A stretch of DNA of 34,602 bases, taken from a virus. The position numbers and the translations under genes are program-made. The DNA is taken from positions 1 through 34,602 of the IMG/VR virus record IMGVR_UViG_3300037487_000817; one strand, 5' to 3'. Below, one piece after another: positions 3,777 to 34,602 of this stretch. Each line of letters opens with the position of its first letter. Within the stretch, counting starts at the first letter, position 1. The notes under the pieces were generated by a model. It made no database searches and was not told the origin of the DNA. It saw only the letters and a list, made by a program, of their open reading frames with translations.

Positions 3777-4964
3777 CTAACCGTGGAAGATCGGTAAGAT
3801 ACCTAAAGATAATACTGATGAAGCTTTACGATCCCAAACGCCTGTGCTAGCGTTTGTAGAAACAGCTGCAGCCAACGTTTTCTGAACACCGCCTTCCATT
3901 ACTGCGTAGTAGTTAGCGTCTGAAGGGAATGCGTCTTTGCTACCGGCCCAATCGTAGCCAACTGGTGCAACAACATAGCCCCAACGATTCCAGACAGAAG
4001 TTGAGCCGCCGCCTGCGTATTTACGAGCATCGCGGTAGATTTCTGTTGGCTCAGGTACAGACAATGGTTTCATTGCCAATGCACCAGGCAATACAATGAA
4101 TGAGCAGTCTGTACCCGCGATGTCAACGCCTGTACCTGTATTGATCTTTGTTAATTCAGCTGTAGAGAATGCTGCAGATGCACGTGTGACAACTAAGCGG
4201 AATTTACCTTGGAAGATAGAGTCAAAGTTCATGTTGCCATCAGTAATGCGATCTTCGTCAACCAAGTTCGCTGAACGGAAAGATGCCAATGTTTTAGGGC
4301 TACAAACTAAATACGCAAATTCAGGCTCGTAGTCTTTAAACGCTGCACCAAACGCTTGTAAGATTGTTTCAGCTCTCACTGCACCAGTGATTGCAGCATT
4401 AGTGCCTGAAACGCCACCGGCAGCCAACATGACTGCAGTGTTACCTGCGTCGTAGTAGAAGCCGTTTAATTTGCTTGTAGGGTCATTTGTGAATGATTGA
4501 CCACCCAAGCCGTTTGCTTTAGTGCCGTACAATGCTTCTGACATTGCAACACCTTTCAATACAGACAAGATAGCGTTATGCTCATCTTGCGCACGTGTTT
4601 CGCCAAAGTCACGGCCCATTTTGGCCAAACCGTCTTGCTGTGTAACTACTTGCTGCATATTGACTTTTTCTGCACCGTGTGTACGGACAGTTTTGATGTA
4701 AGTCAAGTAGTCAGCATTAAAGCTTGTTGCTGACCCATCAGTCGCATCAGTCAATGAAGCTACGTTGATTGTAGGGTTCATTGGTTTGTACCAACGTACT
4801 TGACCGATAAAGGTTTCGCAGTTGGTGTCAATTAATGGGTTGTCGCCAACGATACCAGTGCCAGATAATTTCTTAGCAGATGTGTATGCTTCATCACTAT
4901 ATGCTGTGATGGCTTCTTGTAATACATAGTTTGTTGCACCCGCAACGTTTGAACGTACTGTCAT
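3777..4964 (-). CDS. Major capsid protein (probably HK97 fold)
   Basis: 395 residues. It follows the scaffold gene directly and precedes the connector genes. The central DEHNAILSVLKGVAMSEALYG helix, the YLVCSPKTLASFRSANLVDE strand-helix and the C-terminal SVWNRWGYVVAPVGYDWAG segment resemble coat protein families with an HK97 fold. GGAG lies about 11 nt before the ATG. There is no N-terminal delta domain and no protease gene nearby; a separate scaffold replaces it. Capsid identity is supported by context more than by a diagnostic motif. Confidence 0.85.
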   Translation of the reverse strand: MTVRSNVAGATNYVLQEAITAYSDEAYTSAKKLSGTGIVGDNPLIDTNCETFIGQVRWYKPMNPTINVASLTDATDGSATSFNADYLTYIKTVRTHGAEKVNMQQVVTQQDGLAKMGRDFGETRAQDEHNAILSVLKGVAMSEALYGTKANGLGGQSFTNDPTSKLNGFYYDAGNTAVMLAAGGVSGTNAAITGAVRAETILQAFGAAFKDYEPEFAYLVCSPKTLASFRSANLVDEDRITDGNMNFDSIFQGKFRLVVTRASAAFSTAELTKINTGTGVDIAGTDCSFIVLPGALAMKPLSVPEPTEIYRDARKYAGGGSTSVWNRWGYVVAPVGYDWAGSKDAFPSDANYYAVMEGGVQKTLAAAVSTNASTGVWDRKASSVLSLGILPIFHG

Positions 4965-4985: not shown

Positions 4986-5687
4986 TTAATTTCTCTTTGG
5001 CAATGGTTTACCTTCCGAGATATGTTGTAGTACTTCTTCCTGGGTCATTGCAAAGATAGAACTCTTAGCGGACACACCAGGAGTGGTCGAAGTTTGTTGA
5101 CTACCAGTCCCTGAAGACACTTTGGTCTTAAAAAGAAAGGTATTCTCTTCATTTTCGGCAAACACCTTCATAAAATCACGAACAGAAATACCTGACTTGT
5201 GAACCCAGTCGCCTGCATCAGTTTGCACTAATTCAGCTAGGACTTTCTCATGCGTCATTTCTGCTGCCATCTTGCCTCTAAACTGGTATGCGGACAGCAC
5301 AGCCGTCACTTCATTGTCTCTAGAGAGCTCGGTGTTTCTTTTTGCCAACGCAGCAAGTTTGGCATCTTTCTCTGCCAACTGCATATCGAAAGCTTCTTTG
5401 TGCTTTCCTTCTTCAGTCAGACGCGCAATTTCTGTATCACGGTCTTTCTTCTCGAACGCATCAGCCTTGGCCTGAGCGGCGTCTCTTTCTGCAAAAGCGC
5501 TGTCCAATTTGCCCTTGATAGGTTTCAACTGCTCCTGGATCATTGTCGCTAGTTCGCCTTCAGTCAACGTGAATGTCTTGGCGTCGATTGTAGGCTCTTC
5601 TACCACAGGGGCAGCTACAGGGGCAATAACAGGCGCTGGAGTTGGAGCCGCTGCAGGTATTGTTTCTTCGTTCGTATTTTCGCTCAT
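4986..5687 (-). CDS. Capsid scaffold protein
   Basis: 233 residues. Pro/Ala-rich acidic N-terminus (residues 8-33), then a long charged coiled coil (about 50-130) with many Lys, Glu, Asp and Ala heptads, and a basic tail ending KPLPKRN. This composition and the position directly before the major capsid gene are typical of phage scaffolds, which guide shell assembly and leave before maturation. AGGAA lies 8 nt before the ATG. A sigma-70-type promoter candidate lies about 60 bp upstream. Confidence 0.8.
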   Translation of the reverse strand: MSENTNEETIPAAAPTPAPVIAPVAAPVVEEPTIDAKTFTLTEGELATMIQEQLKPIKGKLDSAFAERDAAQAKADAFEKKDRDTEIARLTEEGKHKEAFDMQLAEKDAKLAALAKRNTELSRDNEVTAVLSAYQFRGKMAAEMTHEKVLAELVQTDAGDWVHKSGISVRDFMKVFAENEENTFLFKTKVSSGTGSQQTSTTPGVSAKSSIFAMTQEEVLQHISEGKPLPKRN

Positions 5688-5772: not shown

Positions 5773-7242
5773 TTACCCAATCCCGTAAAAGCCTAAATCA
5801 TCGTTGAACTTCGCGGGGTCTGGGATGGTGCCTAGAATGTCTTGCTTCGTGAGGATGTCCTCTTTTGTTAAGAGCACTCCATTGATACGTGAGCGGCCTA
5901 TCACGGGGATTAAGCCTGTCTCAATAGCTTCGTCTAAATATTTTTGATAAATTTCTTTTGGCAATCCTCTTGCACGCATTTCGTCCAAGGTTGCCCGTAC
6001 TGATTGCTTATCCACAGCAGTAGCATAAAGATCTCTCAAGCCTGCTCTGGCCTTTATCATGTCACTTGCATTCGCGAAGAACGCATCGTGGATTGTGCTG
6101 GTGGGGATGTTGTTCTTCTTCCCCCATAGGTGAAAGCCCTTTACCAGTGTTGCATCGTTACTGTGATTACCATTAACGGCGTACGCTGTTCTGGCTTTCG
6201 TCACATCCGCAATATCATTAATTTGACCTTCTTTGTTTATGACCTGTTCCCACCAAGACGCTTCGGTTTTTTGGGGGACCTGAATTACATTCATGATCAT
6301 ATTGCCATCTTTATCTCTGTACAGTAGTCGCTCTTCATAGGTCTGTGTAAAGTTTTGCTCTAGCACTTTACCATCAAAGTTTACCCACGGAACATTAGTC
6401 CATTTCTTAGGCAGCTTATTCGCGTAGAATAGCTGGAACCCCTTGGACACGTTGAGGATATCGAAGATTTCAATCTTGGCGTACTTAGCACCCGTCCGTC
6501 TTGTTTCAGAGGCAGCTGTCCCACCCAGCAGAATATCCGCTAGAGAAGAGTTTGGTTTGAACCAGCTAAACTTCTTAAGTACTTGTTCGGTGATTGGTGT
6601 CTTAGGGTCCACCCCTAGCATCTCACTGAACCGGGAGCCAAACAGTTCCTTTGTTAACTTATTCAGGCCCAGCAGATCCCCAACATATTCATCAACAGCA
6701 GGCCCTTTCTTCCGTCGCCCGAATACTATGATTTCCCCGATGGCTTTCCAATCAAAGGCCGACTTAGATGGCTTGGCCGACTTCAGGAAGTCTTCAGCCA
6801 AGCGTCCGAAGAACTTAGTGAAGTCTTTCAGAATAGGCACCTGCTCTGCTAAGTGATCACTCATGATATTCGCGATTGCCTTAAAGTCCTGAGGTGTAAC
6901 CACTAGGTCATAGGTTGCGGACATCTTCTCTACCAACGCACGATTTGTAGAGTCTAAGAAATAGAGTTGCTCCATTATCTCAGCTCCAGGGTCCATCCCT
7001 TTATTGAAAATGTCTCGCACATTGGCCCGTAACGTCATGAGTTCGGCAAAGGTGTCTGGGTCGAAGCTCTTGTATCTTGCTGCTCTGGCTGATATCTCGT
7101 CCAGGATAGTGTCTCTATCACTGGCTTTTACTACGAGGGTGCCTTCTTGTTTGTCTAGGATTTTGCCTAGTTTCGCCTCTACGTTCAAGATGCCAGTGCG
7201 CTCACCCGCGCCGTAGAAGGTGACCATGTTCTGGGCTTTTGC
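5773..7242 (-). CDS. Virion-type single-subunit RNA polymerase, exon 2 (fingers and motif C)
   Basis: Exon 2 of the MuF-RNA polymerase gene: 489 residues, starting at GCA 7242 after splicing. Unspliced, the first in-frame ATG is at 7227, but it lacks a ribosome site and starts in the middle of motif B. The exon begins AKAQNMVTFYGAGERTG, so with exon 1 the motif B pattern R1287-x3-K1291-x7-Y1299-G is restored (T7 R627/K631/Y639). Motif C is STIHDAFFAN with H1674 and D1675 (T7 H811/D812), preceded by NHSNDATLVKGFHLW, matching the T7 'VHSQDGSHLRKTVVWA' helix. The B-to-C distance, 376 residues, is longer than in T7 (173). About 100 residues follow motif C. Confidence 0.9.
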   Translation of the reverse strand, partial: AKAQNMVTFYGAGERTGILNVEAKLGKILDKQEGTLVVKASDRDTILDEISARAARYKSFDPDTFAELMTLRANVRDIFNKGMDPGAEIMEQLYFLDSTNRALVEKMSATYDLVVTPQDFKAIANIMSDHLAEQVPILKDFTKFFGRLAEDFLKSAKPSKSAFDWKAIGEIIVFGRRKKGPAVDEYVGDLLGLNKLTKELFGSRFSEMLGVDPKTPITEQVLKKFSWFKPNSSLADILLGGTAASETRRTGAKYAKIEIFDILNVSKGFQLFYANKLPKKWTNVPWVNFDGKVLEQNFTQTYEERLLYRDKDGNMIMNVIQVPQKTEASWWEQVINKEGQINDIADVTKARTAYAVNGNHSNDATLVKGFHLWGKKNNIPTSTIHDAFFANASDMIKARAGLRDLYATAVDKQSVRATLDEMRARGLPKEIYQKYLDEAIETGLIPVIGRSRINGVLLTKEDILTKQDILGTIPDPAKFNDDLGFYGIG

Positions 7243-8206
7243 CGCTGGTTGTTAGCTGTTAATCGTCGAACACAACGCTCTCCATTAACAACACTTTACA
7301 TTCTAATAATTTTTCCAAGTCTTGCCATGCCGTATCTGGTTGACAGTAGCAGGCGCTACACCGTACTTTTTACTTATTGTACGATCAGACAATCCTTTGA
7401 CGAAATATTCTCTTATCTCAGGGATGTCTTCTGCTGCTATTTTCCTTTTTACTCCATTTCCTGCAATCGGTTGTCTTTCTAAGTATCGCCAAGTACGATT
7501 ACAGCGAATGTCGTCTACCGTATTAGGCGCTACGTTGAACTCTCGACTTAGATCCGCATTCCTACAGCCACTTCTCAGTCTTTCAATTATTGCAACAACA
7601 TCTTCCTCAGATAGTATTGCTAGATAAGAGTCTTCCCCTGAAGCGATTAACCCCATTTTTACAGCATGCTCATTATTGGCGGCATGTGTAGTCCACTCAA
7701 GATTAGTCGCACGGTTATTGGTCTTTACACCATCAAGATGATTTACCACAGGGTGCATCTCTAAATTCGAGATAAACGCACGTGCCACTAATTTATGCAC
7801 ATTTACAGAGGTTCGTGTGGTCTTGTTACTAAACTGGATAGTAACTTGTAAGTACCCTCTGTCTGTCATAAATGGATTCAAAATGTAACCCGTAGAATTG
7901 TTGCGAACATTCCCAGATGTGCTGATGGAGTACAGACCTTCAGTGTCAGGAATCAATTTATATATTTCGGTCATAGTAACCTCTTTAGTTAGAAATGTAA
8001 AGTTCTCTATGTTGCCATAGACGTTCAGACTATATCATACATCCCTGTCCTTGCGCTTCGGCATCACTTGACACCTACTCTACTCGGTTCGTTACCCTTT
8101 CGATAGTCGTTGCACCCCGTTTCTACTTAGTCATCATGACTACAGGGCTCAGTATTGGCCGCAAGGGCTATCCACTGAATTCACAAGGTTTTAAAAGGCC
8201 GCATCC
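7243..8206 (-). ncRNA. Group I intron interrupting the RNA polymerase gene in motif B
   Basis: 964 nt. The 5' exon ends in U (...AAAGGCU at 8207) and the intron ends in G (7243), as group I rules require. P1 is seen: exon GAAAGGCU pairs with intron GGCCUUUU (8 bp, U-G wobble at the splice site) across a 6-nt loop. P10: UGC at 8203-8201 pairs with exon-2 GCA. P2: UUCAGU/ACUGAG. P7: GACTAT (8108-8103) pairs with ATAGTC (8033-8028) inside the typical GATATAGTC..GAAC element. P9: a 6-bp stem with GCAA tetraloop at 8021-8006. An endonuclease gene lies after P9, and a GTTGTTA/TAACAAC helix lies near the 3' site. P3 and P8 were not fully drawn. Confidence 0.93.
7303..7974 (-). CDS. Intron-encoded HNH homing endonuclease (I-HmuI-like)
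   Basis: 223 residues. Domains in order: a NUMOD4-type segment at residues 1-40 (EIYKLIPDTEGLYSISTSG), an HNH nuclease at about 50-100 with VHKLVARAF (H60), VVNHLDG (N78, H79) and TNNRATNLEW (N87, N91), then two helix-turn-helix repeats at about 121-165 and 180-223 (both end in a TW-(R/K)-Y/N-type motif). This is the build of I-HmuI and I-BasI, which nick intron-less alleles to spread their intron. AGAGG lies upstream of the ATG. The gene is wholly inside the intron, between P9 and the 3' splice site. All HNH core residues look intact. Confidence 0.93.
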   Translation of the reverse strand: MTEIYKLIPDTEGLYSISTSGNVRNNSTGYILNPFMTDRGYLQVTIQFSNKTTRTSVNVHKLVARAFISNLEMHPVVNHLDGVKTNNRATNLEWTTHAANNEHAVKMGLIASGEDSYLAILSEEDVVAIIERLRSGCRNADLSREFNVAPNTVDDIRCNRTWRYLERQPIAGNGVKRKIAAEDIPEIREYFVKGLSDRTISKKYGVAPATVNQIRHGKTWKNY

Positions 8207-11200
8207 AGCCTTTCTTAAATCTTTCTCTGACAAATTCAGCCGCTCATTCATGACCTTAAACCTCGGGTCATTATATGTTGCTGCTGCGATCTCGTCGTAC
8301 AACCTGCGTTTCTGCGTTGTTGGCACTACGTTGCTCAACTCTGCTAACTGTTTGTTCTTTGTTGTGAGCGCAATGATCTGTGCGCCCGATGACGACGCAT
8401 CTTGCTCTAATGCCAGCGCGGTACGATACTGGTTCATCTTAGCGACAATAGGATCGACAGCTTCACGTTCCCATAGCTGGTAATTAACCCCCTCTTTGTT
8501 ACGCATTCCTGTCTGCTTATACCCTAAACGTCTGAACAGCGCCTGTGAAGCGGTATTCTTCGGCGCGATGAAGGCAAAACTCTTCGCGTTACCGACCAGC
8601 TGATTAACCGCAGCATCTGCCAAACCTCTGCCACGGCCTGATGCATCTAGCCAGACACCACTAACCTTCTTCCAGCCGTTAACATTCTCGACTGAGATAA
8701 GGCCCTGGTTATCTCCAATGGTCTGCAATGAAGCCTTACGCTTGCTAAAGTAGCCATCGATGAATGGGTCAGCGTCTGCCTTGGTAAGAAGGGCTGTGTC
8801 GATCTTAGACGTAATCAGCGGCGGATTCAAATCGAAAGCAGCTGGAAACTTACGCATCTCATAGCGCCCTATAATTTGGAGGGGGTAGTCTTTCCCCAGA
8901 GCAGCCTTTATCTCAGCTGTCTTGGTTGCTACCTTCTCTTTATTGGCCGCTTCGAAGACTGAGTTGAGCGGGTCTGTCAAAGACTTGCTGCCAAATTCAA
9001 TAACAATGTCCACATCAGAGGAGGCCTTGTAGAAACCCTTAGCGCGGCTGCCGATCAACGTAATACCTTCAATTCCTGCTAATTTTTCTTTAACGACCAA
9101 GTCCGCACCTGGAGAGGGTGCCTTGAGGTGATTATCAATCTTAGCGGCTTCCATTGCGAACCGCATGAACTTGCCTAGCTCCTCTCCCTCTACCTGTTGA
9201 GCCATCTCTGACTCAAGAACAGACCTTATGTCAGCTGGCTTGCCTCTCAGCAACTTGTTGCCGATGTCAGTGAGCTCAGGCCACAATCTGTCAGCGATCT
9301 TTTGCCGTCCAGTGAACGTCAGAGAGTTATCCCGACCTTCGAATGCGTCAGTTAAACCGCCCATGAAGGCGCCTATCTGATCTCTAAAGTTCAGGTAGCC
9401 GTCGTGTCCTAAGACTTTTGCCTCCTTAGTATTAAGGAAGGGCCTAAAGGTCTCTCCAGACTGTGGACTGATGAGCCCTCTGTCGTAAATCCTAGCCCGA
9501 TGATCGATGAAGGGGTTGTTAGAGAATGAGTCACCTGACTTGCGTAACCATTCCATTGACTTAAATCGTTCATACGCATCACCACGCCCAGCGATATAGT
9601 GCTTGTACTCATTCAGCCCATCATAGTACTTGGCCTTCCCTCTGTCATCCACAAAGTATAATACTTTCTGTACGGCATCATAGAAGTCCGGATCAATCCT
9701 ATACTCAGACTGAGAGGCCCAGTTAAGCGCGTCTACAGTGTCCTTGTCCACAAACGACTCAGGGAAGTCACTAAAAGAACTAGTAGACGTAATGGGGATA
9801 CGGGTATCCGTCATTAACCCCAACTTGTCTTTCATGAAATATGTCTTGTAACCTTCTCTGAAGATTAAGCGATTCTCCGCCTTGGTAACACCTACCCGTA
9901 GACCCACCTCTACTTTTCTGGTGAGATGTGCGTAGTCTTGCACTCTCTTGTCCGTAATGCGGATGTTGTAAGCGAGGGTATCGTAGTAGGGGCCGAAATA
10001 GGCGCCTGACATTCTGGACTTCATACGTCTCTTTTGAATGCCGTAAGTCTCTACTTCGAACAGATCAGAATTTCCCTCAAGAATACTCAGCCCTGTTTCA
10101 TACCATTTTGCCTTAGTCCCATTTAAGTTAGCCTGATTATACAGATCTCGACCCAGTGCAATAGCTAATTGATCCCTATCGGGAGTATCCGCTAACGACA
10201 ACCTATTGGCAAAACGTAAGTAGAACATCTGCTTATCGCCTTCTGTCAATCGGCTGTTAATTATTAGAGGGATACGCCTATCAAATGCATCACGTAGCTC
10301 TCTTGCAATCCTAGGTGCGGTTCTGTCTTCCCAGAGATTCTTAGCCTTTATGTTTGGTAAGAAGTTATCGTGTAAGTCTTGTAGCTGAATTGGCCCAAGT
10401 ACAGGGTCAATGTAGTTATCTTGCAATAACTTCTTCAAAGGGTCGGAGCCGCTCCTGATCTGTGTCTCAATCGCGTCTGAGACGTTCATCACGTCAAACT
10501 TGACTTGCGATTGTGCAACAGCCTTGAAGTTACCCCAACGCTCGCCATTCTTCCGATAACGTGTGAATACAATTCGTAAGTTATCTGATACAACAGCTCT
10601 TTCATTGGCACTCATCTTGTCGCCTAGCCCCTCTATAAAGCTTACAATAAAGTCCTTATCCACTTGCTTGAGCTCTGGGCTATCCTTGACTAATTTTAAA
10701 TTGTTCTGTAATACACCTAGGTTTGGCTGGTATAGCCGCACATCCTCATAACGCCCGGTTACGGGATTGAAGATCAACTGATCCTCTCTAGGCAAACTGG
10801 TTAGCACTCTTCGCTTCATCGCCTTCTTGTTTCCAATAAGCGCTCCACGAAAGTTAGTTAGAGATAGAGTGCCATCAAGTTCACCTGATTGGAGCAAATA
10901 GTAGTCCCTGAGTGTATTGACCAGCGAAGTATCCCCGAAGAAATCTTCTGGCATCGTAGCATGGAGCCTCATTGCATCCAGCTTGGCCTTCGCATTGGCA
11001 AAACGTTGAGTGTCATTGGGTATCGCGTAGGTGCTATCTGTCATTTGCCTCAGGTCATTTAGCCCGATAGTATTGCCCTCAGGGTTACTAAACTTATCTA
11101 CAGTTAGCTGTCCAGTATTGAATAGCTGAACTTTCTTGTAATCCCCGAAATGCCTTAATTGTACAGACGTAGGTTGACGAAAAAGCCAGTCATTATAAGA

Positions 11201-12073
11201 CTCAGCAAGCGGTCCCATCCCATCATAATACGCTTGTTGATCCTTTGTAAGCGCACCAAGATTGCGTCTACGCACTTGAGAGACCGCCTCCAGCTTGCCC
11301 ATGTCATCCCAAGACTTAAAGACGGGCGTAGTAGTTGATCTGCATCTATAATGGGCAGGAGGCAAGTGATCTGTATCACCGACAGGGTAAATCTGGCCAT
11401 CTCGATGAGCACAAATTGGAGTGGTACGGGAATCGAGCACAGCAACGTATTGCCAGCCACTAATAGCTTTTTCATTTGCCTTATATACCTCATGATCGGC
11501 TTGGTTTGTTACAGAGGTCACTGCAGTAGTCACGAGCGCAGTGGCTTGGTTCTTCACGATAGGTGCGATAGCCCTTACGTCCGCTACTAGCTGGGTGTTT
11601 GTCTTCCCCTCTGCAAGCCCTCTCCTGATAGTGGCTTCAATGCGTGTCTTCTCACCGTCAGAGATGCCTGCCCAGCCTTGTGCCAATGTTCTGTCATTGT
11701 GCAAGGGTCTGCTCAGGACGATCTCTTCTGCGATGCGGCGGTTAGGTCGCTCTGTCTTCCATATCTGCCCAAAGCTCTTTTCTAGACTGCCATACGTAAA
11801 TGAAGCTTGCTCACTCACTAGCCCAGTAAGGTCGTGTTTAGTTGACAGGAAAGCATCTTTGTGTGTCTTCTTTATTTCTTTATCGACTGCTTCTCTGAAT
11901 CGTAAAAACCCAGCAGTAGAGAAGTTGGCATCCTTGACGAGCTTATCAACACGAACAGTGTGCCCGTCTAGGATCAATTCAACTTTACCACTTACTCTCC
12001 GCTCAAATAAGCGGACCATCGCGGCTCTATCGATAATTCTATCATATATTTCTGTGTTCGCGTTGACTGCCAT
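8207..12073 (-). CDS. MuF head protein fused to single-subunit RNA polymerase with inserted NTase and GNAT domains, exon 1
   Basis: Exon 1 codes 1289 residues; without splicing the frame runs 12 codons further into the intron and stops at 8168. Residues about 110-255 are a Phage_Mu_F domain with its C-terminal signature GWQYVAVLDSRTTPICAHRDGQ (206-227, written as two parts of one motif) and HYRCRS (241-246). Residues about 280-850 are polymerase N-terminal region. Polymerase motifs: DHRAR with D857 and R861 (T7 DWRGR, Gly replaced by Ala) and motif A QDASSSGAQ with D1225 (T7 D537). Between them, at about 988-1212, lies a nucleotidyltransferase (GS at 1008-1009, DVD at 1020-1022) then a GNAT acetyltransferase (GRGRGLA at 1146-1152; NTASQALFRRLGY). 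AGGA precedes the ATG. The gene directly follows portal, the usual MuF place. Confidence 0.9.
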
Positions 12074-12088
12074 TGGTCACCATCCTGA

Positions 12089-13621
12089 TTATGCCATCGC
12101 ATTCATTGCATTGGCGAAATTATCGTTCTTTGGTACAGCACCCTGGACAATGTTATCACTAGTGATTTCTTGCTGGCCTTCTTCGTCATTATACGAGGGA
12201 TCCACCATATCATTAGATTTAAGCATTTGTAGCCACAATGAGCGAGGCACAAGACCTTTCTCATACCATTCAGTTGCCAGTCGTAACCAATCAGCGCCTA
12301 ACGGAACTGGATCGAAATCAGTAGACAACGTGAACTTGACTTCACTCAAGGGAACATCAATATTATAGCGCCATTTGATCATGAAGACAATTATCGAGCG
12401 CATTGTATGGCTGACCTTATTGCTCAATACACCGAGTTGGGCTGTCTGTGCTGCATTTCTGATCTCTAGCGCTACACCTGACTGGACATTCTCTGGAGAT
12501 AACATCCGGACACCTAAGCGGGCAATCTCTTCAACTGATTGGACGATTGCTCTATCCATATCCGCAAGAGCTGCAGTAGGGGTGTCTAAGATGGTAGCCT
12601 TGCCATCCATTGGGAGTCGTATCCAGGAACCAAGGCCGGCATCGACGATCTCTTCAAAAGCCTCATCCGACATATCCGCACAAATAACAGGTGTGTAAGT
12701 CGCAGCACCGTACAACAAATGGTTGCGACGACTGACTTTATTATATAGACTGATCTCTTTGTCAACAATTGACGAAAGAATCGGTGGGATTGGGGCGATA
12801 GAGCCATTAAGCGGCCAAGCAGGGATCGCTGTGATACGCTCACCGTTCATTAAGATGCTGTCATAGCATTCTTTGTAGACTAATCCGCCGGCGATGTCCG
12901 TTAAGTCTCTCACTGCAGTAGTGTTACTGAAAACCCTGTCCTCTACCCGCTGCCCTGCTTCCTGAAATACGCGGACTTGGTAGAAACCTTCATCAGTCAA
13001 CTCATGCACCCAGCAAGTCTCTAAGAGATTGGGGTGGAACTCATTGTCAGCCAGGTAGACTTCTTCAAAGCCTCGTACAATTACCTGACATAGACCTCTG
13101 GCATCCGTCCGCCAATTCACGATATGCTCTGCCTTGTGGATCACAGGGTAGGGCTTCAATGCCTTGGCCTCTTCAGGAGAGAGTGCGTCGGGGTTGTCAA
13201 TATGGGGGTAATCCAAGAAGACCCAGCAACGTGAAGACTGCATTTCTTCCCATAACGCTTCATCTAAGAAGGCCGTCATTGGAGAGTCATCTTTGTTGAA
13301 CTGATTCATCAACCAACCATACGCTTCTGCCGGCACAGTGTCTGGCAAGCTCAACGTGGGTTGTTTTCTGAGAAGGCCACCTACGAGCATTCTAGCAAAC
13401 TGTGCAGTAATGCCTGGTAGCTCTGCCTCTGCTTTGTAGAACTTCCACTGCTCAAGACTCATTGAGTGCGAGAAGGGAATTAATAGGTTCTCAAAATTGT
13501 ATACATCAAGTAATGCATCAAACTTCTTAACTGCTGCTTCTCCGTTACATACAGCTCGACAACGTCCCCACAATTTAGCGAACATGGAGTAAGCAGCGCA
13601 TGGGGTCGCTACAGTAATCAT
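12089..13621 (-). CDS. Portal protein (DUF4055 family)
   Basis: 510 residues. It begins ITVATPCAAYSMFAKLWGRCR, matching the DUF4055 portal-family start, followed by AAVKKFDALL and an acidic, helical body. The segment ARMLVGGLLRKQPTL and the later 'VEEIARLGVRML...NVQSG' region are typical of the family. Portals form the twelve-fold ring through which DNA enters and leaves the capsid. The start overlaps the previous stop as TAATG and has no strong ribosome site of its own. The MuF-polymerase gene follows 15 nt downstream. Confidence 0.87.
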   Translation of the reverse strand: MITVATPCAAYSMFAKLWGRCRAVCNGEAAVKKFDALLDVYNFENLLIPFSHSMSLEQWKFYKAEAELPGITAQFARMLVGGLLRKQPTLSLPDTVPAEAYGWLMNQFNKDDSPMTAFLDEALWEEMQSSRCWVFLDYPHIDNPDALSPEEAKALKPYPVIHKAEHIVNWRTDARGLCQVIVRGFEEVYLADNEFHPNLLETCWVHELTDEGFYQVRVFQEAGQRVEDRVFSNTTAVRDLTDIAGGLVYKECYDSILMNGERITAIPAWPLNGSIAPIPPILSSIVDKEISLYNKVSRRNHLLYGAATYTPVICADMSDEAFEEIVDAGLGSWIRLPMDGKATILDTPTAALADMDRAIVQSVEEIARLGVRMLSPENVQSGVALEIRNAAQTAQLGVLSNKVSHTMRSIIVFMIKWRYNIDVPLSEVKFTLSTDFDPVPLGADWLRLATEWYEKGLVPRSLWLQMLKSNDMVDPSYNDEEGQQEITSDNIVQGAVPKNDNFANAMNAMA

Positions 13622-30664: not shown

Positions 30665-30692
30665 CACAGGTCTCCTTTTAATTTCGTGTTAA

Positions 30693-30728
30693 AGCACTTT
30701 ATAATAGCACCCACCATTGTAAAGTGCT
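30693..30728 (-). promoter_or_regulatory. Inverted repeat overlapping an extended -10 promoter candidate for the terminase operon
   Basis: A perfect 9-bp inverted repeat, AGCACTTTA at 30693-30701 and TAAAGTGCT at 30720-30728, has an 18-bp spacer. On the minus strand an extended -10 (TGC TATTAT, 30709-30701) overlaps one arm, but no good -35 is seen. On the plus strand the second arm is followed by CTCTTTTTTG, so a terminator toward the right is an alternative. It sits 29 nt upstream of the terminase small subunit start. Confidence 0.4.
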
Positions 30729-30800
30729 CTCTTTTTTGTTTAGCCGTTTAGTCGTCATTATTTTCTCTTTAAGTTTTCTCTTTAAGGTTTTCTCTATAAA

Positions 30801-31066
30801 GTCTTCTTTAAGGTCTTCTTTAAGGTCTTCTTTAAGGTCTTCTTTAAGGTCCTTAATTGCTATTAGTTATCATTAATAAGTATCATTAAATGTCTTCCTT
30901 AAGGTCCTTAATTGCTATTAGTTATCATTAATAAGTATCATTAAATGTCTTCTATAAGGTCCTTAATTGCTATTAGTTATCATTAATAAGTATCATTAAA
31001 TGTATCTATTTATAATTATCATTAAAGAAGACTTTAAAGAAGACTTTAAAGAAGACTTTAAAGAAC
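30801..31066. repeat. Inverted 12-bp tandem arrays around three 55-bp direct repeats (origin or pac candidate)
   Basis: Four perfect GTCTTCTTTAAG 12-mers lie at 30801-30848 (degenerate copies from about 30766). They are followed by three direct repeats of 55-bp period (30846, 30901, 30956) containing CCTTAATTGCTATTAG and ATCATTAATAAG. Then AAAGAAGACTTT is repeated three times at 31024-31059, with a partial copy to 31066. The right unit is the reverse complement of the left unit with one difference, so the two arrays face each other over about 175 bp. The region is very AT-rich. It may be a replication origin, a packaging site or a control region for the terminase operon. Confidence 0.8.
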
Positions 31067-31096
31067 AACTTTGAACCCTAAAAAGGCCTCTAACGA

Positions 31097-31110
31097 TTAC
31101 TTTAAAGTAA
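31097..31110. repeat. Perfect 14-bp palindrome
   Basis: TTACTTTAAAGTAA is its own reverse complement. It shares the CTTTAAAG core with the 12-bp tandem repeats and with the next inverted repeat, so a common DNA-binding protein is possible. Confidence 0.65.
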
Positions 31111-31150
31111 CCATAAAGACACTCTTTAGGGATGTTAAGGAACCTTTACA

Positions 31151-31200
31151 GCCTCTTTAAAGACATCCTATAACATTAGTAATAGAAGCTTTAAAGAGGC
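31151..31200. repeat. Inverted repeat with CTTTAAAG core
   Basis: GCCTCTTTAAAG at 31151-31162 and CTTTAAAGAGGC at 31189-31200 are perfect 12-bp arms with 26 bp between them. The shared core links this element to the neighbouring arrays. A hairpin in RNA or a dimeric binding site are both possible. Confidence 0.65.
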
Positions 31201-31246
31201 TTAAAAGAAATCTTAATCGCTCGGGCGAGGGCGAGGGCGTATTTCG

Positions 31247-31275
31247 ACATGCCTGAGGTGTGGTCTCAGGTCATG
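31247..31275. repeat. Hairpin CCTGAG/CTCAGG
   Basis: CCTGAG at 31252-31257 and CTCAGG at 31265-31270 have a 7-nt loop, and the stem extends through CATG with one bulged base. No T run follows on either strand. In N4, the virion polymerase uses small hairpin promoters; this is a possible but untested analogue. Confidence 0.4.
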
Positions 31276-31301
31276 CGCCAGTATAGCCGATTCGCCAAGA
31301 C

Positions 31302-31382
31302 ATTTTAATTACAACCCTTATCTGCCACCAAGAAAGCCTAGGCGGAAGCTAAACAGCAGCTTCAAAGAATTGTAATTAAAAT
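31302..31382. repeat. Nested inverted repeat, 81 nt, branched hairpin structure
   Basis: The outer arms ATTTTAATTACAA (31302-31314) and TTGTAATTAAAAT (31370-31382) are perfect 13-bp complements. Inside are GAAGCT/AGCTTC with a 7-nt loop (31345-31363) and TCTGCC/GGCGGA with one wobble. The whole could fold as a three-way branched structure. It is not a tRNA (no anticodon or T-arm consensus). It may be a DNA signal or a structured RNA. Confidence 0.6.
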
Positions 31383-32185
31383 ATCATAACGGAGGGGTGC
31401 TTCCCTCTTGCCAACCCGTGAAGGTCACCAAAATCCATCCTGTCCACCCTTACCGAGTGAATAAGACTACTATCAGCTGCACAATCCACATCTCCTTTGT
31501 CGGCATGACAAATTTGATTATATCACCAATGGGGGTTGTATCCATCACCTTAAGAAAACGGTAACTTCAAGAGCTATATTGACACCCTACCCATTTGTTT
31601 GATTGCAGCGAAATAACCCGATTATAGTTATTCAACCTTAAGCAATCCATGATACCCATACCTTCTCGCTCTATTAAAGCCTTACTTTCAAATCACCGCG
31701 CCCTAAGGCACTCTCTTAGACCTGCCGCCCTTACAGGCCCAGATGAATACATGATCCTACTCGATCTTCCTCACCCTTTTAGCCAATTCTGAGCCAAGGT
31801 GAGAAGATACGGATGCGCGAAGGGAAAACCAATCAAGAAAACCCCGCCATCATTATGTAACCGTACCGCACCTCACCCTCCCCCACTCACCTCCACCGCC
31901 CTCACCCCCGCGTCCGTCCCGCACTCGCCGCCGCCGCAATTTTTGGGTGGTAGTCAACCCGCGCCCCCGCGCTCCGCCTGCGACCAGTTTTCGACCCACT
32001 TTTCGGTCCTCCGCAGCCCTCGCCGTTCATGGCCTCCCCCGCAGCCCTCGCGGTTCATGGCCTGCCGGGGCCACGTTCTGCTGATTTTTTGCCCCCTGTT
32101 GCACACGCTATTTTGCAGGGTACTGCCGCTAAATTGTCACCACCAGGGAGCGCCAGCGAGCACCTCTACGGCCTAAGGGGGAGCG
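31383..32185. other. Non-coding stretch with GC-rich block and short direct repeats
   Basis: No credible gene was found. 31383-31860 has ordinary composition; 31860-32130 is C/G-rich on the plus strand, unlike the rest. Two 25-bp direct repeats with one difference (start CCGCAGCCCTCGC, at 32011 and 32039) and a 16-bp pair GGGAGCG(C/T)CAGCGAGC at 32146 and 32178 are present, the latter running into the end of the next gene. A plus-strand frame at 31799-32176 is Pro/Ser-rich and lacks a ribosome site. The block may be foreign DNA or part of a replication or packaging region. Confidence 0.5.
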
Positions 32186-33505: not shown

Positions 33506-33939
33506 ACTCTTTCTCCTAAAATAAAGATACCGGCCAAAGCATCGGCCCTTTCGTTTCCCGCATTGCCAGAATGGCCTTTCACCCACTTCCACGTTACCGC
33601 ATGAGGTGCGCAGGCGATATCTAACCGCCTCCACAGGTCCTCATTCTTGACTGGCTTCCCCGAGGCCAATTTCCAACCCCGTTGTTGCCAGCCAGCCAAC
33701 CACTTTGTAAATCCCTCCAGAACATACTTCGAATCAGTATATAACTCCACTCTGCGATTACCGTCAAGGCATTCCAGCGCAGCAATAGCCCCCATCAACT
33801 CCATCCGGTTGTTAGTAGTATGCACTTCTCCGCCCCACGATTCCAGCGCTGTTACGCCATCTATGATATGGACGAAGCCCCACCCGCCAGGCCCTGGGTT
33901 GCCCTGGCAGGCACCGTCTGTGTACACCACTACGCTCAT
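33502..33939 (-). CDS. rnhA: Ribonuclease HI
   Basis: 145 residues from ATG 33939, which forms ATGA with the previous stop; the frame upstream to 34032 is not used. All catalytic residues are present: D8 in [17 protein letters not shown]47 in NRMELM, D69 in YTDSKYV, H123 in KGHSG and D133 in ERADALA. RNase HI cuts RNA in RNA-DNA hybrids, here likely removing primers or transcription hybrids in phage replication. Length and motifs are like cellular RnhA. It lies in the rightmost group, presumably non-structural genes. Confidence 0.95.
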
Positions 33940-34602
33940 GCTAGAAGCGCTCGTGCTACAGTCTGGCTCAGTCTTGCCCCGGGCACAGTTAATGTCCCTC
34001 GGGGCACTTTGAGCCCCATCGCTTTCAACCATATTTCCCCTTCTTTAAACTCATAATCCCGGCGAAGTTCAACTACACCATAATCACAAGGAAATAAGCC
34101 AAGATTGTCAATAGACAAATTGTTAGGGTCCATATTCTTGAACCCCACATAGACCAAAGGAGGAAGTGGACCATGCATGTAAATATAACAAGAAGTCGCT
34201 ATATCGTAATAGCATCCTCCACCCTTCACCCTCACAACTGGTCTACGATTGGAAGCATCACGTACGCCATATACCGAGATATAGGGCTTCCGCGCAAATA
34301 AAACACCTGTCTCCTCGTCATAATGAAACCACTCTCTTAGCTTAGTCTGCGGCAGAGGGATAGCCCCTTTTGGCATCACATTCGCCTCAATTCGGTAATC
34401 GTAAAAATTCCTAGCAAGTGTCATCTCCAGATTCTCTATACGATTGTCCGTGACATCTCTGAAGCCAGCCTTCCCTATTTTATGGCGAATCCAATAGTTG
34501 GAGGGTATTTGCCCATTTACTTTTGTCCATTCCACAGATGCGACATCCATTAGTATATCCGTGAATGTTAAGTAATTGGCGCGTTTAGATGCACGATAAT
34601 CT
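33936..34602 (-). CDS. Degenerate HNH-like protein (open at window edge)
   Basis: The frame is open to the right edge; the first ATG is at 34550 (204 residues) with only a weak ribosome site, so the true start may be outside. Residues from about 73 ([14 protein letters not shown], then [31 protein letters not shown]) follow the build of phage HNH proteins ('YDPETGxLxWK...GYxxVxV-GxxYxxHRLAW...DHxNGxxxDNRxxNL'). The expected Asp-His and His-Arg pairs are missing, so it looks catalytically dead or altered. A nuclease-derived DNA-binding protein is possible. ATGA coupling to RNase HI. Confidence 0.6.

Follow-up and report, generated by a model that had tools for sequence, protein, structure and literature searches.

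A putative MuF-fused virion RNA polymerase of phages with a swappable cargo slot before motif A

Virion polymerases and injected enzymes of phages

The virion RNA polymerase (RNAP) of phage N4 (gp50) and its relatives are T7-type single-subunit RNAPs (ssRNAPs) fused to virion domains, and they form part of a two-polymerase strategy. In phage P23-45, too, the virion RNAP is joined to a structural protein and there is a separate non-virion RNAP; in both phages the virion enzyme transcribes the first genes and the separate RNAP follows (PMC5512222, PMC10770324). Here we describe a minus-strand gene in a viral DNA stretch of 34,602 nucleotides (IMG/VR record IMGVR_UViG_3300037487_000817, positions 1 to 34,602; the whole stretch is called the window below), the predicted product of which, MuF-ssRNAP, joins an N-terminal MuF head domain to a T7-type polymerase and contains, inside the polymerase just before motif A, a nucleotidyltransferase-like (NTase) domain and an acetyltransferase-like (GNAT) domain. 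MuF-ssRNAP differs from N4 gp50 in having MuF as the N-terminal partner of the polymerase, in the position of its gene, which is found in another phage group and is flanked by portal and capsid genes, and in carrying its additional domains inside the palm rather than at the ends; the N4 virion RNAP family phrog_2166 is matched with an E value of only 0.0019 over 95 residues, and the protein is not placed in that family. The N4-like enzymes can also bear added effector domains, such as an ADP-ribosyltransferase (ART) or a metallopeptidase (PMC5512222). The P23-45 RNAPs differ from MuF-ssRNAP in being homologous to cellular RNAPs and in their tape-measure fusion, and the accessible text of that report mentions no cargo slot (PMC10770324).

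Three other described systems share parts of this design. The multi-domain polyvalent proteins are thought to be injected, and among their domains are RimI-like GNATs and minimal NTases akin to the antitoxin NTases of toxin-antitoxin systems (Iyer et al., PMC5512222); MuF-ssRNAP has the make-up of such proteins, with MuF, RNAP, NTase and GNAT in a head-gene cluster, but its enzyme domains are nested in the polymerase catalytic domain and swapped at one fixed point, whereas those of polyvalent proteins stand side by side. The MuF polymorphic toxins of temperate phages also combine a MuF N-terminus with a variable enzymatic part (PMC12226406; Jamet 2017), and fusions of MuF to ARTs and Nudix domains have been described (PMC9503650). 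In the toxins, however, the variable part is C-terminal and accompanied by an immunity gene, whereas in MuF-ssRNAP it is internal and a polymerase forms the conserved trunk; no neighbouring gene was recognised as an immunity gene, exon 2 is followed by a scaffold protein gene, and the locus is not counted among these toxins. The third is the adenylyltransferase of the HepT/MntA type VII toxin-antitoxin system, the nearest named family of the NTase, with which it shares a GS..DxD motif, although the window insert has no HEPN toxin partner and its NTase is fused inside a polymerase. No description of a MuF-ssRNAP fusion, or of a cargo slot within a polymerase palm, was found in the open literature, subscription papers aside. 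The new element is the internal hot-swap slot, since virion RNAPs and polyvalent proteins are already known.

The slot before motif A and its contents

The features of the polymerase around the insert are listed below.

9491..9505, minus strand: DxxGR motif, DHRAR (D857), located by hhalign to the T7 family
8384..8407, minus strand: motif A, EQDASSSG (D1225, corresponding to T7 D537), located by hhalign to the T7 family
8438..9118, minus strand: cargo insert, residues 986-1212 (227 amino acids), missing in most relatives and replaced by other domains in some
8801..9118, minus strand: cargo part 1, predicted Pol-beta-type NTase, closest to MNT/MntA (PF01909; MntA_antitoxin NF047752; PDC-S09; weak matches to PDB 2rff and 8xeh)
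8438..8800, minus strand: cargo part 2, predicted minimal GNAT acetyltransferase (Pfam match; R-G-R-G-L-A acetyl-CoA motif at 8635-8618)

The initial annotation had placed D857 and D1225 368 residues apart with an insertion of smooth flanks between them. Both aspartates are found at these places by sequence and by hhalign to T7, and the insertion is borne out by relatives with an empty site, by mapping on the T7 profile and by a fold search. Because the relatives pass directly from the equivalent of residue 985 to that of 1213 with few residues between, the segment is a true insertion and not diverged polymerase sequence. The span first proposed for it, 8370-9110, was about right but takes in motif A (8407-8384), while the insert itself covers 9118..8438. 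By hhalign, the site, referred to as slot 1, falls at about residues 524-526 of T7, within the loop that connects helix AFCFEYAGVQHHG with the strand before D537, and from this mapping the cargo would protrude from the polymerase surface.

The two enzyme patterns that had been noticed in the extra part are also recovered, as both Pfam families score at or above their cut-offs on the isolated insert. NTP_transf_2 (PF01909), with a cut-off of 21 bits, scores 26.8 bits (E value 6.7e-6) on the insert and 29.0 bits (E value 1.4e-6) for cargo part 1, and the motif GS(x10)DVD lies at 9052-9008. The NTase also matches PADLOC PDC-S09 (E value 4e-5) and MntA_antitoxin NF047752 (E value 1.7e-4), the latter with 21.4 bits, far under the 60-bit cut-off of that family, to which the domain is not assigned. 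These profile matches and motifs point to a Pol-beta NTase. The GNAT family PF13302 is matched with 25.5 bits against a cut-off of 25.4 (E value 2.4e-5), and the GNAT profile matches PDB entry 4mbu (E value 2.3e-5). The acetyl-CoA motif R-G-x-G-L-A is invariant in the three aligned phage GNAT copies, as RGRGLA, RGQGLA and RGKGLA. The GNAT part is well defined in the AlphaFold2 model, with a predicted local distance difference test score (pLDDT) of 80-90, and by fold the modelled copy from relative L036 matches protein N-acetyltransferases such as Ard1, Naa50 and NatC. The predicted structure of this homologue confirms the GNAT fold, and the domain is a putative acetyltransferase.

From IMG/VR scans and phage records, 283 loci were obtained in which both flanks are present, and 123 of these are distinct around the site. 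In 106 of these 123 distinct relatives slot 1 is empty, the flanks being joined by about 5-20 residues, and in the other 17 it is filled by a loop of 108-402 residues. The filled states of these 17, to which the window adds one more, comprise GNAT, NTase and three further domains, called X, Y and Z, alone or in combination:

Window only: NTase and GNAT
L029: GNAT alone, 55% identical to the window GNAT
L036, L037: X, Y and GNAT, the GNAT 73% identical to the window GNAT
L044, L049, L084: X alone
L103, L117, L177, L179, L181, L182, L183: Y alone, the Y variants forming one family by alignment
L055, L083, L093, L101: Z alone

It had been reasoned that the insertion would be called into question if homologous polymerases had other sequence of the same fold at this place. 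The relatives have nothing or unrelated domains there, and the reading of the segment as cargo is therefore strengthened. In an alignment of 61 representatives, slot 1 is the main place of length variation, and the other large insertions are Z at a second slot, an intein-like element in L036 and a 65-residue stretch in the divergent L003. The second slot lies just after motif B; it holds Z (702 nucleotides) in 49 loci, among them L010, L084 and L120, where Z follows ..NVEGKLAKVLEKK, and is empty in 233, including the window, where its position is after ...GKILDKQ in exon 2. Both slots are filled in L084, the first by X and the second by Z. An intron was considered for the 702-nucleotide stretch that follows motif B in L010 and other loci and was rejected, as this stretch is an in-frame copy of Z. 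The VVEELGE motif of Z had raised the suspicion of a MazG-like domain, which none of the libraries supports, and the Z and Y profiles found nothing meaningful in the PDB. Jumbo phages, for example FLC9, phiPA3 and 201phi2-1, have relatives of X as stand-alone proteins, a stand-alone GNAT relative occurs in FLC9, and the Y and/or GNAT cargo of L036 has fold matches in several phage proteins.

An assembly artefact, in which the NTase and GNAT segment would have been misjoined to the polymerase, is most improbable. It could draw on the presence of the NTase in this contig only, relatives being found neither in phage or plasmid records (tblastn) nor in viral contigs (motif-weighted scan). However, the insert is in frame, its G+C content (0.495 versus 0.467) and third-position G+C (GC3) are similar, it lies precisely where other phages have their cargo, and GNATs of 55-73% identity occupy the same slot in independent contigs.

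The cargo turns over quickly at this fixed insertion point. On a tree of 80 polymerase rows with the cargo columns removed, the cargo states require 13 changes compared to 12.8 with shuffled labels, so that there is no phylogenetic clustering of cargo type. The sister of the window, L055 (support 100, 89-90% polymerase identity, 90% over the tree columns), carries Z instead of NTase and GNAT; the two DNAs share 77% identity as far as the codon that immediately precedes the cargo, cannot be aligned within it, and align once more beginning with the first codons that follow. L029, with its GNAT, sits on a branch of 0.003 amid empty relatives.

Alternatively, the domains could be selfish or neutral passengers that have entered a tolerant loop through illegitimate recombination and persist only because they are harmless, much like the introns and inteins of this gene. 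The same gene hosts a group I intron in the window and an intein in L036, which marks it as a target of mobile elements, and the cargo is absent from most relatives. Against this stands the observation that the GNAT and Y copies are under purifying selection: nonsynonymous differences (pN) among the GNAT copies are 0.20-0.34 compared to synonymous differences (pS) of 0.76-0.88, the pS values being near saturation, and for the Y copies dN is 0.11 and dS 1.36, with dN/dS of about 0.08-0.14. The acetyl-CoA motif is conserved, the same kinds of domain are re-used at the slot, with Z at two slots, and no self-removal or mobility gene was recognised in the cargo. We consider the passenger explanation unlikely.

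The split gene, its neighbours and a second polymerase

The gene begins with a minus-strand open reading frame (ORF), 12073..8168, of 1301 residues, in which the MuF head domain is followed by the polymerase. The initial annotation had missed that this ORF represents exon 1 only: an intron splits motif B, and motif C lies in exon 2. The features of the gene and of its surroundings are as follows.

8207..12073, minus strand: MuF-ssRNAP exon 1, residues 1-1289, the ORF running into the intron as far as 8168
11330..11644, minus strand: MuF / SPP1 gp7 minor head protein domain, residues 144-248 (PF04233, E value 8e-15; TIGR01641, E value 3.5e-20; phrog_241 head morphogenesis, E value 2e-67)
7243..8206, minus strand: group I intron within motif B (RF00028, 48.1 bits, E value 6.4e-11, slightly below the gathering score)
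7303..7974, minus strand: HNH homing endonuclease (NUMOD4) within the intron
5773..7242, minus strand: exon 2, 489 residues, with the rest of motif B at 7242-7210 and motif C, TIHDAFF, at 6096-6076
12089..13621, minus strand: portal protein, upstream neighbour (phrog_145, E value 2.6e-48)
4986..5687, minus strand: head scaffolding protein, downstream neighbour (phrog_206, E value 1e-8)
3777..4964, minus strand: major head protein (phrog_247, E value 4e-16)

The intron junction is GCT/...GCG/GCA, and splicing out would give LRKA/AKAQNMVTFYG, between the equivalents of T7 R627 and K631. The predicted joined sequence (...EKDLRKA + AKAQNMVTFYG...) matches the uninterrupted relatives, which have EKDLRKAAKAQNM, and the predicted spliced protein has 1778 residues. 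Interruptions are also found elsewhere in the family: the gene of L036 is interrupted after AKAQNMV, those of L055 and L029 are interrupted near motif C instead of motif B, and in EBPR siphovirus 1 an HNH gene (gp48) separates the two halves of the MuF-RNAP gene. The intein-like element of L036, 341 residues long, lies in the MuF domain between HWHC and CRS (C...DTKILT...GSN-C). An additional HNH endonuclease is encoded at 33936-34550, and there are no large ORFs in 30668-31798, adjoining the terminase gene.

By its motifs and predicted fold, the protein belongs to the T7-type ssRNAPs. When the MuF-RNAP family is compared by hhalign to T7 RNAP together with six phage RNAPs, which are second polymerases of the phages, the alignment runs collinearly from upstream of DxxGR to motif C (709 columns, E value 1e-5) and pairs the DxxGR, motif A and motif C regions of T7 with those of the family; motif B was assigned by eye, the automatic alignment having a gap there. 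T7 D537, R627, K631, Y639 and D812 all have equivalents in the spliced protein, and residues 537 and 812 of the fetched T7 record are both Asp. An AlphaFold2 model of residues 501-1289, the exon 1 part, was built with 46 sequences (pLDDT 75.6), and the 50 best fold matches listed for it from the PDB are all ssRNAPs (POLRMT 1.4e-7, T7 2.5e-7), with a low template modelling score (TM-score).

The PF04233 and TIGR01641 scores of the MuF domain exceed the family cut-offs, and the portal gene lies directly upstream, so that MuF-ssRNAP is flanked by the portal and the scaffold and capsid genes, the terminase being more distant. Eleven relative records of 54-108 kb, each with a MuF fusion, were searched for another polymerase, and a second canonical T7-like RNAP, well over the family cut-off, is present in 10 of the 11 (G001, G005-G012 and DSS3_VP1, or W01). 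The exception is the partial record of EBPR siphovirus 1 (W02), in which both matches belong to the MuF fusion, one to each of its exons. No second RNAP is found within the 34.6 kb of the window, as expected for a fragment. The MuF fusion, the place of the gene and the second RNAP indirectly support the reading of MuF-ssRNAP as a virion polymerase that would be packaged and injected.

The second RNAP is itself in pieces in G001, G005, G008 and G010, possibly also through introns. DSS3_VP1 (Naomviridae; L003 among the slot loci) is a roseophage and a distant, cultured relative with an uninterrupted MuF-RNAP gene, the product of which has the accession QGH74596.1; it has uracil-DNA, and the paper on it does not mention its RNA polymerase (PMC12697855). 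The single match in a genome collection, a 74-kb contig in a metagenome-assembled genome labelled Gammaproteobacteria, looks like a binned phage contig and not a prophage.

Predicted role of the cargo in early infection

In the reading that we consider probable, MuF-ssRNAP is a virion RNAP with a swappable cargo slot, and the NTase and GNAT most likely modify host proteins early. MuF-ssRNAP would be synthesised late and packaged together with the head, and it would enter the cell along with the DNA and transcribe the first genes until the stand-alone second T7-like polymerase takes over. The surface loop before motif A would accept whole folded domains while leaving the polymerase intact, and phages may use it as a swappable slot. 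The cargo of the window, an MntA-like NTase that could transfer nucleoside monophosphate (NMP) groups and a minimal GNAT that could acetylate, would modify host proteins in the first minutes of infection, toxin or defence proteins being possible targets. MntA adenylylates its toxin partner, and for this reason NMP transfer to a host protein is a natural guess. Early modification of host proteins is plausible and in line with what has been proposed in the literature for polyvalent and MuF proteins. More broadly, it is reasonably likely that the palm of the virion RNAP serves as a delivery chassis, with the fixed slot and the second slot after motif B, for rapidly exchanged effector cassettes for host takeover or counter-defence.

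Several findings weigh against this interpretation. MuF proteins may be purely structural. The cargo is dispensable, as 86% of the relatives are without it, and the NTase copy was seen in the window alone among the searched phage, plasmid and viral-contig data. Of the two domains proposed for fold modelling, the GNAT could be judged through its L036 homologue, but the NTase part was too poorly defined (pLDDT 32-69). Domains X, Y and Z have no Pfam match and nothing usable in PADLOC or NCBIfam, so that the term effector is not established for all cargo.

The cargo might instead act in cis, the NTase tagging or capping the transcript and the GNAT acetylating the polymerase or nascent RNA, thereby tuning early transcription. 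The insert is close to motif A in sequence, and members of this NTase superfamily can have RNA or protein substrates. However, close relatives with unrelated domains or none indicate that no cargo is needed for transcription, and the GNAT resembles protein N-acetyltransferases and the NTase resembles MNT antitoxins; we regard an action in cis as improbable. As for targets in trans, the initial annotation had thought of host proteins or RNA polymerase, in the manner of T4 Alt; no evidence points to host RNA polymerase, and ADP-ribosylation of the T4 Alt kind was dropped because no ART domain was recognised in the window cargo.

If the probable reading, delivery of host-modifying enzymes by a virion RNAP, is true, fusion to the head protein MuF would be a third way to carry an RNAP in the phage particle, beside that of N4 and the tail-tape fusion. 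An essential polymerase could then house whole enzymes in its palm without losing its function, and the contents of the slot in metagenomes, including X, Y and Z, would show which domains have been selected to act during the first minutes of infection.
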